A stretch of DNA of 64,000 nt from Acetobacter aceti (lineage in GTDB: Bacteria; Pseudomonadota; Alphaproteobacteria; Acetobacterales; Acetobacteraceae), in the NCBI RefSeq assembly GCF_002005445.1, contig NZ_CP014692.1:434001-498000 (forward strand). The letters run 5' to 3'. How positions within the stretch are numbered: the stretch's first letter is position 1; every line of letters starts with the position of its first letter. The translations under genes were made by a program, and so were the position numbers. This document shows, piece after piece, positions 6,850-19,602 of this stretch. Under the pieces are notes generated by a model, which searched no databases, was not told where the DNA came from, and worked only from the letters and a program-made list of their open reading frames with translations.

Positions 6850-7365
6850 TTACTTCAGCGTTTCGCGCATCCTCTGCCTCAAGGTGTTGCAGCGTTTCGT
6901 ATAGTGTGTAGCGCGAAACGCCGTGAAGAAATTCACACAGAAGGCGGCGAACAGAGACAGAAATGAAGTCAATGTCAGCACCATACCAAATGTGGGTAAT
7001 CGCGTGTCATAACGAACGCCGGAATACCACAGCAGACTGATGCTCAGGATTGCTCCGAGAAGACCGAACACGCCTGTGGTCTTGAGCATTGAATCCTCAA
7101 TCTGCTCGAAGTCTGAAGTTTCATGCCACAGATCGAACAGCTGACGGTCGATCTCGCCCACCCTGTCGGCATGTGCCGCCTTGTCTTCGGTGGTGATCTT
7201 GTGGGGATTTTTCCGATAGATATCGAGTTCCTGTCGCGCTTTGGTAAAGACGTGACGGCGCTCCTTGATGGCTGGAATACTGATGTCGACAAAGCTGAGG
7301 ATGGCGACGTTCAACCCGGCTGAAAGCTGGATAATCGCCTGAAAATCACCCCATGTCGTGGTCAT
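6850..7365 (-). CDS. Small membrane protein of unknown function
   Basis: I place the start at 7365 because TGAGGAATGGGCG precedes that ATG with good spacing; an upstream in-frame ATG at 7452 has no such site. The 171-residue product has a hydrophobic segment near residues 12-28. A charged helical middle follows (RQELDIYRKNPHKI and a DRQLFDLWHETSDFEQIED stretch). Two C-terminal membrane helices (about 95-115 and 122-145) end in a basic tail. The layout resembles small predicted membrane proteins with SLATT-like topology, but I do not recognise the family with confidence. It is convergent with the endopeptidase gene. Confidence 0.6.
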   Translation of the reverse strand: MTTTWGDFQAIIQLSAGLNVAILSFVDISIPAIKERRHVFTKARQELDIYRKNPHKITTEDKAAHADRVGEIDRQLFDLWHETSDFEQIEDSMLKTTGVFGLLGAILSISLLWYSGVRYDTRLPTFGMVLTLTSFLSLFAAFCVNFFTAFRATHYTKRCNTLRQRMRETLK

Positions 7366-7514
7366 CGCCCATTCCTCACAGCATCTGTCTGGTGGAATGT
7401 TTTCTAGCGAGGACAGCTCCGAGGCAGAACACGCCTGCCGCATGACTGCCATTCAGAAGTGCAGCGGCAGGCTGGAGATCTATCCAACCTGTTCGCAGCA
7501 AGAGCGAGATTTCA

Positions 7515-9365: not shown

Positions 9366-9432
9366 AGAGGTGGATGGTAGAACCGGAAGTTTTAGGTGTC
9401 ATATTTTTCAAAAAGACAATGTGTTCTGAAGA

Positions 9433-9457
9433 TTTTTGGAAAAAGCCTCACCAAAAA
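9433..9457 (+). terminator. Terminator-like 25-base repeat, copy 1
   Basis: tttttgg (9433-9439) and ccaaaaa (9451-9457) enclose aaaaagcctca. The same element with one mismatch lies in the opposite orientation at 11351-11375 beside mscS. Both sit downstream of a gene end, so they probably act as transcription terminators that have been reused. Confidence 0.5.
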
Positions 9458-9460
9458 CGT

Positions 9461-9721
9461 TCAGGGCAGATCGACACGGATTTCTTGCTCCACTGCTACG
9501 TCTGAGACCGTGGCGTCCGACAGGCGATCGTTGATCAGGTAGTCCGTCCGTTCATCCGGCAGATTATTCAGGGTCTGGATCACGAGGATTTTGAACATCA
9601 GCACCGGATCAAACGACGGGCTTCCGCCCTTGCGTCCGTCTGAACAGGCCAGAGCCGTCTCCAGATCAGAGCGAAATACTTCAAAATCCACAGTCCGGGA
9701 AAAGACTTCAAGCTGCCCCAA
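9461..9721 (-). pseudogene. IS5-family transposase, N-terminal fragment
   Basis: The 86-residue frame contains LEVFSRTVDFEVFRSDLE, CSDGRKGGSPSFDPVLMFK and VIQTLNNLPDERTDYLIN. These are the characteristic N-terminal region of IS5-type transposases. After NDRLS the frame leaves the family (the usual FMRFLG is absent), and no DDE catalytic domain follows. It is therefore a truncated remnant. Confidence 0.75.
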
Positions 9722-9800
9722 TCACCATAGGAGATATGAAACTATAGACATGCGTGCAAAACCATGGGGTTTTTAGTGCCCTTCTACTGCAGGGCATGGA

Positions 9801-9858
9801 CTTCAGAGCCAGAAAGATTCATCATCAACCCAACCCATCAAATCCCGGGACTGAACAC
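9801..9858 (+). pseudogene. IS481-family element, right-end fragment (plus orientation)
   Basis: Translation gives SEPERFIINPTHQIPGLNT, the same C-terminal tail found in the larger remnants at 10609-11205 and 18875-19256, here on the other strand. Only the last roughly 20 codons and the IS end (tgttcagtcccggg on the complementary strand) remain. Confidence 0.65.
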
Positions 9859-10049
9859 ATATTATGAACAGTAACGCGATTCCGTGGGAATTGATGTGAG
9901 ATCAGGACCGAATTACTTCCTGATTGGAATGTCATTTTTGTGACCAGGAGTATTTATTATAAGCATTCGTTAATGTTTTGTTGACATGTGTGTCTTTTTG
10001 GCGTTTCGTCCACTTGAGCGCTCGAATGTGTCTTAAATGGGAGAAAACG

Positions 10050-10397
10050 ATGCGTGATCTCAACGTAGCTGAAATAGTAGAAGTTTCCGGCGGATGCTGT
10101 CTTTTTCCGGGGGGTTTTGGTCCTGGCGTTCTGCCTGGGTTTAATGATTGGGGTGGTTGCGGCGGTTTTGCACCTCCTCCGGCGCCACCTCCTGGCAATT
10201 GCGGGTTTGCGCCTCCTCCGCCGCCTCCTGGCAATTGCGGTTTTGCACCTCCGCCACCTGGTAATTGTGGTTTTGCGCCCCCGCCACCGCCTTCTGGCAA
10301 TTGCGGCTGTGGTCCTGCCTCATTTCCAGCAGTTTATGGTGGATGGAATGCCGGCTCCTTCTATAATATTCTGAATAATATCATTCGCTGGGCCTAA
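10050..10397 (+). CDS. Double-glycine-leader precursor peptide with Cys/Pro/Gly repeat core
   Basis: The start is the ATG at 10050, preceded by GGGAGAAAACG. The 115-residue product opens with MRDLNVAEIVEVSGG, a classic class II bacteriocin/microcin double-glycine leader (pattern M-R-x-L-x-x-x-E-I-x-x-V-S-G-G). Cleavage after Gly15 would release a 100-residue core. That core begins CCLFPGG and then has tandem units of the form CGFAP(4-6)GN at about residues 37-84. It contains eight cysteines (16, 17, 37, 51, 63, 73, 85, 87) and ends in an aromatic segment YGGWNAGSFYNI. No C39-peptidase transporter, immunity gene or modification enzyme lies next to it. The function is unknown; secretion through a remote peptidase-containing ABC exporter is an inference. 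Confidence 0.72.
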   Translation: MRDLNVAEIVEVSGGCCLFPGGFGPGVLPGFNDWGGCGGFAPPPAPPPGNCGFAPPPPPPGNCGFAPPPPGNCGFAPPPPPSGNCGCGPASFPAVYGGWNAGSFYNILNNIIRWA

Positions 10398-10459
10398 AAT
10401 TTCTTCGCTAACTTCATCCTGTAAAAAATAAGTTGAAGAGATTACAATACAGGCTGGCG

Positions 10460-10506
10460 CGAAAGTTGTCCGGTTTGACCGGACAACTTTCGTAATTATT
10501 TTTATT
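10460..10506 (+). terminator. Strong rho-independent terminator of the peptide gene
   Basis: A perfect 14-base stem (cgaaagttgtccgg at 10460-10473, complement at 10479-10492) with loop tttga, followed by taattatttttattt. It lies 62 bases after the stop codon and shows that the peptide gene is an independent transcription unit. Confidence 0.85.
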
Positions 10507-10608
10507 TCAAGAATTGCATGTTATAGATAATAATTGTTCAGTCTGAACCTAATAGTGTTACGGCAATGCCAACGTCTGAACAACGAGTTCTGTCCGTGAC
10601 CTCTTGCG

Positions 10609-11205
10609 TGTTTAGTCCCGGGCTTTGATGGATTGGGTTGAGGATGAATCTTTCTGGCTCTGAAGCCCATATCTTGCAGATGTATTCACAGGGTGTCAGA
10701 CCGTTGTTGAGCCTTCGCCCGAAGTTACAGGCCACCATGAAGTCATTGAGGTGCGTCCTCAATGGAAGTGTTTGACGGTTGCCTGCCTGATTGTGTGGTT
10801 CATTCGCTTGCCCTGACCATTGGTCCAGGGGTGATTGGGTTTCGTCAGGCGATGCCCGATCCCGTTGGGCTCGCGGGTCATGTCGAACCGCATGGAACGT
10901 GACCATGCCGTGCCACGGTTGCGGGGCTGCTCAGCGAACTGGATGCCGTTGTCTGTCAGGATGGTATGAAACTATGCCGACGAAAGACCTCGATCATCGC
11001 TTCGTCCTTCCCGGACAGGACCATTGAACGCGACTCTTTTGGCTCCGTCTCTGGTTTTCGACAGTCTGACGCCTCCGCATTTCGTCACTGTTTTCGGGTT
11101 GATCCCGAACGCCTCGCCCAGCGCCGCGAGCGAAGCCTGCTATCGCTGTAGTGCTGCTCGCACGGCGTGCGTGGTCGTGGCGCTGCCATGACGTATCCGT
11201 CCCAT
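10609..11205 (-). pseudogene. IS481-family transposase, disrupted copy
   Basis: The N-terminal part reads from about 11205 in one frame as HGSATTTHAVRAALQRSQAS and then EAFGINPKTVTKWRRRQTV, the usual helix-turn-helix start of IS481 transposases. The C-terminal part (LRTHLNDFMVACNFGRRL and LTPCEYICKIWASEPERF) is in another frame. The integrase core between them is mostly deleted, and several frameshifts are present. It is a dead copy that matches the fragment at 18875-19256. Confidence 0.75.
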
Positions 11206-11350
11206 AAGGCTTCCTTCCACTCACGTGAAAATAATGCACCAGCAAACCACGGGACTAAACACGTAGCTGAATGAGCGGCAGGAAACATCATCTGGAACTC
11301 CAAAGCAGCCGAATCGCCCTCCCCCAAAAACGCCGTCAATCGGCCAAAAA

Positions 11351-11375
11351 TTTTTGGTGAAGCTTTTTCCAAAAA
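11351..11375 (-). terminator. Terminator-like 25-base repeat, copy 2
   Basis: On the minus strand this reads tttttgg, then aaaaagcttca, then ccaaaaa, 12 bases beyond the mscS stop codon. It differs from the copy at 9433-9457 by one base. Confidence 0.5.
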
Positions 11376-11386
11376 GCCTCAAAGCC

Positions 11387-18874: not shown

Positions 18875-19256
18875 CGTGTTTAGTCCTGTGCTTTGATGGG
18901 TTGAGGATGAATCTTTCTGGCTCTGAAGGCCATATCTTGCAGATGTATTCACAGGGTGTGAGGCCGTTGAGGGTCTTGAGCCTTCGACCGAAGTTATAGG
19001 CCACCATGAAGTCATTGAGGTGCGTCCTCAATTGCTCATGACTGTCGTAATGGAAGCGTTTGACGGTTGCCTGCCTGATTGTGCGGTTCGTTCGCTCGAC
19101 CCGGCTATTGGTCCAGGGGTGATTGGGTTTCGTCAGGCGATGCCCGTTTCCATTGGTCTTGCGGGTCATGTCGAACCGCATGGAGCGTGACCATGCCGTA
19201 CCCCGGTTGCGGAGCTGCTCAGCGAACTGGATGCCGTTGTCCGTCAGATGGTATGA
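18875..19256 (-). pseudogene. IS481-family transposase, C-terminal fragment
   Basis: The minus-strand frame gives LTDNGIQFAEQLRNRG, KPNHPWTNSRVERTNRTI, RFHYDSHEQLRTHLNDFMVA and LTPCEYICKIWPSEPERF. This is the end of the IS481 integrase core, including the region around the catalytic Asp and Glu. The N-terminal half is missing, replaced at about 19257 by unrelated sequence. The IS end (tgtttagtcctgtg) lies near 18876. It is dead. Confidence 0.75.
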
Positions 19257-19602
19257 AGTGACATAAAGCGAATACAGTTTCGGCCCTACATAGGTTCCTT
19301 CAGTCAATAGATAAGGATATTCCGCTGCAGGCTCCCGAGAATGGAGGAATGAAACGGAGAAAAGATGTCCTGAGCTTGATGCAGCCGGGACATCTCGTCG
19401 ATCTGTGGCGGAAAACAGCGCTGCAGCTTCGCAAGCAGGATACCGAATACTGTGGTTGGAAATTTGCATCGAGAAAAACCGACGAGACGAACTCCCGATT
19501 CTGGAGGGTGAGGTAATAGGGGATCACGAAATAAAATAACATATGGGTTAACTTCTGCTACAGATTATTTATCATTCGCTAATATACGATTTGGAGAAAA
19601 TT
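19257..19602. other. Low-GC spacer with no recognisable gene
   Basis: Sequence between the IS481 fragment and the prohibitin-like gene. A short plus-strand frame begins near 19350 behind GGAGG, but I cannot link it to any family. The promoter of the next gene should lie near 19540-19600, where the sequence is AT-rich (attatttatcattcgctaatat). Confidence 0.35.

Follow-up and report, generated by a model that had tools for sequence, protein, structure and literature searches.

In a 64,000-nucleotide stretch of the Acetobacter aceti genome, here called the window, a short open reading frame lies among insertion sequence (IS) remnants and encodes a peptide with cysteines set in polyproline. We asked whether this frame is a real gene, how its product would leave the cell, and what the product might do outside. 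The encoded precursor has 115 amino acids, comprising a 15-residue double-glycine leader and a 100-residue core with eight cysteines, and its parts are listed in Table 1. The core units are CGGFAPPPAPPPGN, CGFAPPPPPPGN, CGFAPPPPGN, and CGFAPPPPPSGN, followed by CG-CG and then by the tail. At the DNA level, TRF reported a 36-nt unit in 4.1 copies at 10162 to 10306. The unmodified core chain has a mass of 9,852 Da (9.85 kDa). The leader, the eight-cysteine core of 100 residues, and the CGFA-polyproline-GN repeat were thus all as the initial annotation had described them.

TABLE 1 Features of the precursor gene and its surroundings (window positions)
Feature	Position	Strand	Basis
Other transposase remnant, PF05598 (transposase domain DUF772)	9461..9721	-	Domain match
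IS481 end remnant on the left, in inverted orientation to the right-hand one; 72 nt, 89%	9787..9858	.	Sequence comparison
TTGACA, start of conserved upstream block, promoter-like; no clear -10 recognized	9981..9986	+	TTGAC in 8/8 aligned upstream regions of family members
8-bp palindrome GAGCGCTC, possible operator	10016..10023	.	Aligned upstream regions
Ribosome-binding site GGGAG	10039..10043	+	Sequence; GGAG aligned in 6/8 members
Precursor gene, 115 aa plus TAA	10050..10397	+	Sequence, homology, pN/pS
Double-glycine leader MRDLNVAEIVEVSGG; predicted C39 cleavage after G15	10050..10094	+	Sequence, leader models
N-terminal core segment CCLFPGGFGPGVLPGFNDWGG, counterpart of the nearest relatives' hydrophobic Gly-zipper-like segment	10095..10157	+	Alignment, hydropathy
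Tandem array, four CG-x(6-10)-GN units, FA-polyproline filler	10158..10301	+	TRF, CG splitting
Conserved C-terminal part CGCGPASFPAVYGGWNAGSFYNILNNIIRWA	10302..10394	+	Tail model E 8.7e-12, alignment
Hairpin, possible terminator, perfect 15-nt arms within	10459..10493	+	Sequence
Right-hand remnant of the IS481 family, bounded by its two terminal repeats	10607..11263	-	Sequence comparison

The gene had been called an orphan, which holds for its location but not for its family. The initial annotation had also staked its reading on homologs with a conserved leader, and both a paralog in the same genome and relatives in six other Acetobacter genomes were found. The paralog (G000 C1:1515540) has 50% identity to the window protein (E = 2.3e-12). 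Relatives occur in 6 of the 48 other genus genomes, with E values of 1e-31 or better in G295, G299, G330, and G328 and of about 1e-6 in G302 and G303; the last two are supported by their shared gene position. In the A2 profile search, 18 of 49 genus genomes matched at an E value of ≤0.1 and 7 were kept at ≤1.5e-6, the 11 further genomes (E = 0.003 to 0.09) being dropped for other leaders or low complexity. At their cutoffs, profiles A2 and A4 returned 7 and 8 proteins, which are family members; databases added P0010 and P0011, and in P0009 a frameshift affects the later part. A single-sequence search of 5.8 billion proteins returned nothing at an E value of ≤0.01, not even the query protein itself. 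When the window protein (P0001) was searched against 299 genomes of the wider bacterial family, 133 genomes matched at an E value of ≤0.1; these matches, which begin at 1.2e-4 below the rows of its own genome and of G295, looked like proline-rich noise, often with internal stops, and were dropped.

Members share the leader MR[ED]LNVxE and the tail GSFxxxLNxII, which mark an Acetobacter LNVAE/GSFxxxLNxII double-glycine family that the window protein fits. The full family tail motif is GGWxxGSFxxxLNxII, with GGW not kept in G302 and G303. The paralog and its family adjoin genes resembling a methylcitrate-cycle set and are not enclosed by IS remnants. In each of the six relatives, a convergent Ser-rich gene follows at no more than about 450 bp from the start region, with genes of citrate-synthase and PrpD type further on, and upstream ABC importer genes are common to G295 and G328 only. 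The convergent gene, present also at the paralog, encodes a Ser-rich protein of 87 to 92 amino acids without a Pfam match (e.g., L005 1096-1356, plus strand). A functional link between this neighbor and the peptide was rejected, since 29 of the 49 genus genomes carry the gene, some of them without the peptide. At its start the paralog aligns with ATT, at the position where ATG stands in the window gene and in all six relatives. P0004 is the paralog protein with M first (identity checked), and this initial M is not proof of an ATG allele, since the start codon may be written M.

Four independent lines of evidence show that 10050-10397 is a real gene: its profile matches, its pN/pS, its conserved upstream DNA, and its alternative frames, which are no evidence to the contrary. 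A tail model built from four orthologs in other genomes matched the window frame at an E value of 8.7e-12 among 1,432 frames, with the next frame at 0.36 and the best shuffled sequence at 0.024. Using a leader model made from twelve precursors outside the window-gene family, the same frame ranked first of the 1,432 (E = 0.0015; next, 5.5; best shuffled, 4.2). Comparison of the window copy with the paralog and four orthologs gave pN/pS values of 0.14 to 0.40 for the leader and 0.24 to 0.49 for the tail, with all ten comparisons staying under 0.5; these segments are short (14 and 18 codons, respectively), and in several pairs nonsynonymous changes outnumber synonymous ones by count, only the rates being low. 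Among the other family members, the tail gave 0.09 to 0.23, so that the window copy is under looser constraint. The only small open reading frame with a membrane-like stretch between the flanking genes, 10117-10371, is another frame of the precursor gene. It was rejected as a gene, as its open length was reached by 2,000 of 2,000 synonymous shuffles and reflects composition.

The surrounding control elements were examined in the same way. The good ribosome site reported earlier was found, and the perfect 14-bp terminator reported with it stood in part: the hairpin arms (10460-10474 and 10478-10492) are perfect over 15 nt, but the T-run that follows is interrupted (AATTATTTTT), and the terminator-like matches in the region (2 versus 2.3 expected from shuffles) show no excess. 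Upstream, the palindrome occurs in 6 of 8 aligned regions and is missing from the distant relatives G302 and G303. This conserved palindrome could be a regulator site, as might be expected if the gene encoded the precursor of an extracellular signal and not an effector; some double-glycine peptides are signals. However, at 100 residues the mature part would make a long signal, and no receptor or histidine-kinase gene was present among the neighbors examined, and we regard a signaling role as very unlikely.

Comparison of the cores showed which parts of the protein vary. Leader and tail are fixed across the family, while the number of CG...N units (0 to 4) and their filler are variable. Splitting the cores at CG gave four units in the window protein, four in the paralog, one each in G295, G299, G330, and G328, and none in P0010. 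The filler is Gly/Trp/Ser (also Pro) in the paralog versus Phe-Ala-polyproline in the window protein; the cysteine spacings are 1, 18, 11, 13, 13, 13, and 29 in the former and 1, 20, 14, 12, 10, 12, and 2 in the latter. The array is kept while its filler was exchanged, Gly/Trp/Ser giving way to Phe-Ala-polyproline or the other way round. Over 18 residues, mean hydropathy is 1.04 to 1.85 in the nearest relatives, 0.63 in the window protein, and 0.46 in G302 and G303; the hydrophobic segment is broken by prolines in the window copy and is also lacking in the two distant relatives.

A collagen-like or extensin-like rod, as had been proposed for this core, found no support. The polyproline runs extend over 4 to 6 residues, the G-X-Y pattern is absent, and AlphaFold2 run on ten aligned sequences predicted disorder (mean pLDDT, 44) with one weak C-terminal helix at residues 101 to 114, a low confidence that still leaves room for short polyproline II helices. 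This composition also bears on function. The product could be exported as we propose and yet be no weapon but a structural or adhesive extracellular protein, with a Gly/Pro/Cys-rich low-complexity body cross-linked by disulfides. The freely changing filler, the retention of the tail and of a cysteine spacing of about 10 to 14 residues, the predicted disorder, and the absence of an immunity gene would suit such a protein, whereas its small size (9.85 kDa) and a leader common to bacteriocin-like precursors would not; nor was any sorting or anchoring motif recognized in the window protein. We consider this role unlikely.

The window gene is flanked by a methyladenine glycosylase gene and a mechanosensitive-channel gene, with IS remnants between them. 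In G299 and G328, these flanking genes are present with a different sequence between them, in which a motif scan found no such leader frame. Only the right flank was found in G330, and the mechanosensitive-channel gene had no match in G295 or G030. Among the 49 genus genomes searched, the Pro-rich copy was seen in the source genome alone. Arrival of this copy on mobile DNA would fit the site, where the IS remnants prove only past IS activity. A plasmid origin was rejected, as plasmids had no protein match and the plasmid DNA matches were IS481 parts, and a phage origin was rejected with no relative found in viral contigs. A 31-nt inverted repeat (90%; 9427-9457 and 11351-11381) marks the outer limits of the inserted region, and G299 and G330 have similar pieces at this site. 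The window also holds a second copy of the IS481 remnant at 18875-19257 (86% over 389 nt).

Near the window gene, no plausible immunity gene was found: 9366-11386 contains IS remnants and the overlapping frame, and the earlier statement that neither an exporter nor an immunity gene is adjacent was right. A 200-amino-acid open reading frame at 6850-7452, the third gene upstream, has hydrophobic stretches and no Pfam match and fits an immunity gene by size and distance alone. It is a poor candidate because G299 and G328, both of which are without the peptide here, contain sequence that aligns with the greater part of it (from 7004).

Could the window gene instead be a duplicate in decay, carried between IS remnants, whose repeats have slipped and which no longer has a function? 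Both sides carry IS481 remnants, none of the 48 further genus genomes searched showed the window copy, the site is empty of the peptide in G299 and G328, the tail constraint is looser, and the hydrophobic segment is broken by prolines. Yet the frame is intact through all repeat changes, as are the leader, the ribosome site, the upstream block, and the hairpin. The pN/pS values stayed below 0.5 in every comparison, though much of the divergence may predate the duplication, and it is in the paralog and not in the window copy that ATT aligns at the start. We therefore hold decay to be unlikely.

The initial annotation had made its reading depend on a C39-type exporter in the genome, and one C39 match was found, 392 kb from the window gene. 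It is a 750-amino-acid transporter (gene at G000 C1:48419-50671) in which PF03412 and the ABC membrane and ATPase domains are all present. The exporter gene overlaps the end of an HlyD-family adaptor gene, and a 130-amino-acid precursor with the same leader is encoded upstream. The C39 domain contains AECG...C, HWGMNH, and NDP motifs, which we read as the C39 catalytic triad, and outer-membrane channel domains are represented in the genome by 26 PF02321 matches. Five precursors in the genome have the leader in common: the window gene, the paralog, the exporter-linked precursor, C1:2520247, and C1:3512252.

The leader and the exporter co-occur across the genus. Leader matches (E ≤ 0.01) and a C39 exporter were found together in 16 of 49 genomes, the leader only in 2, the exporter only in 4, and neither in 27. 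The exporter is thus present in 16 of 18 leader-positive versus 4 of 31 leader-negative genomes (Fisher, 1.7e-7, shared ancestry ignored) and in 7 of 7 genomes with the window-gene family versus 13 of 42 others (Fisher, 9e-4, ignoring relatedness). The leader model (A3) that picked out the five precursors includes rows from the source genome; its search matched 22 of 49 genomes at an E value of ≤1, and 4 were dropped (G300, G312, G322, and G335; E = 0.25 to 0.87). The leader-positive genomes without a C39 match are G117 and G329 (68% completeness). Conversely, G169, G242, G320, and G321 have a C39 exporter without a leader-model match, and their substrates may bear another leader. In the wider bacterial family, the leader model matched 21 of 299 genomes, in 8 of 102 genera. 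Because of the shared leader, the co-occurrence across the genus, and the intact-looking C39 residues, we think it very likely that the window precursor is exported through the single C39 route of this genome. For microcin V, exporters have been reported with very diverse cargo (PMC10231218).

Other precursors were seen along the way. The exporter-linked 130-amino-acid precursor belongs to a family of its own (AYAGYLAGxYN...ASCSTI; L034 8153-8542, minus strand, L157, L163, L164, and others), the core of which likewise opens rich in Cys and Pro (e.g., CCISSCHPAPSCSPAPSCG), so precursors that otherwise differ come to share a Cys-Pro opening. This leader type is also joined to a DUF5862-like glycine-rich core in precursors at L160 (1186-1512 and 3414-3740), L108, and L162, and such precursors stand in tandem in G030. 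L108, the only one scanned of the L160, L108, and L162 precursors, matched PF19180 above the cutoff (E = 2.2e-8).

The window protein was compared with known bacteriocin classes. It had no NCBIfam match, and Drf_FH1 alone was returned from Pfam, far below its cutoff (E = 0.95). Other genus precursors matched bacteriocin families below the curated cutoffs, the best being TIGR03949 (E = 0.0045), PF10439 (0.026), and PF17508 MccV (0.073). Class II microcins are characterized by an N-terminal leader of 15 to 18 amino acids ending in GG or GA (PMC9746304, PMC10233263). Like those of the microcin V type, the window protein has a 15-residue leader ending in GG and a core below 10 kDa, and its genome encodes a C39 ABC transporter, an HlyD adaptor, and outer-membrane channel domains, although these are unclustered and 392 kb off. 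It differs in lacking an adjoining immunity gene, in its tandem Cys-polyproline array, and in a core of 100 amino acids as opposed to the 60 to 90 given for the ten known ones (PMC10233263). The Gly/Ser-rich C-terminal region that carries the siderophore in class IIb microcins is not found in it, the C terminus being ...NNIIRWA.

With lactobin A/cerein 7B (TIGR03949) and Bacteriocin_IIc (PF10439), the likeness lies in the leader and in the hydrophobic, Gly-rich first segment of the nearest relatives; class IIb bacteriocins differ in that this segment is broken by prolines in the window protein. Relatives matched TIGR03949 weakly (P0008, E = 0.061; L042, E = 0.0045). The window protein matched neither model, and the best relative reached 16.7 bits against a TIGR03949 cutoff of 21.5, while the best of nine other precursors reached 14.9 bits against a PF10439 cutoff of 27.1. 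A search of open-license papers, which says little about absence, returned none pairing a double-glycine leader with Acetobacter or acetic acid bacteria with a C39 peptidase; by title and opening of the abstract, articles on Acetobacter and bacteriocins or microcins dealt with different subjects, and those on polyproline were not relevant. Cysteine directly follows GG in many genus precursors, as it might if these residues were enzymatically modified before export, making the product a RiPP. No modifying enzyme was recognized beside the window gene or beside the exporter, however, and this possibility seems slight indeed.

Taken as a whole, the product of the window gene is probably a double-glycine small protein that is exported in trans and is bacteriocin-like. 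By descent, the gene is a duplicate within an Acetobacter family in which leader and tail are constrained and the middle CG...N array changes in copy number and filler. It would be transcribed from its own upstream region, which was copied along with the gene, as its conservation shows. The only C39-peptidase ABC transporter of the genome, 392 kb away, would recognize the 15-residue leader and cleave it behind GG, working with the neighboring HlyD-type adaptor and an outer-membrane channel. A 100-residue protein with eight cysteines would be released, and disulfides may form outside. There, in the weakest step of the proposal, it may act in competition with other bacteria, as class II microcins and class IIb bacteriocins do. 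A bacteriocin-like role is favored because the leader and exporter are of the class II bacteriocin type and several co-precursors weakly resemble such bacteriocins; it is weakened because there is no immunity gene, because the hydrophobic segment is lost in the window copy and in G302 and G303, and because the low-complexity body would suit a matrix or adhesive function. Given export, we put antagonism at a little short of an even chance.

More tentatively, Acetobacter may possess a dispersed secreted-peptide system in which one C39 exporter serves several unlinked precursors. One branch of it would keep leader and tail and refill a Cys-bounded array, from Gly/Trp/Ser to polyproline, with a copy made on IS-flanked DNA. 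The mature product would then be a polyproline effector stapled through its cysteines, a kind that the searched family libraries do not contain. If this is true, acetic acid bacteria encode a group of double-glycine peptides that has gone undescribed and whose unlinked precursors would escape any search confined to the surroundings of the exporter. The family itself provides a natural series, with zero, one, or four Cys-bounded units between fixed ends, for probing the role of the array.
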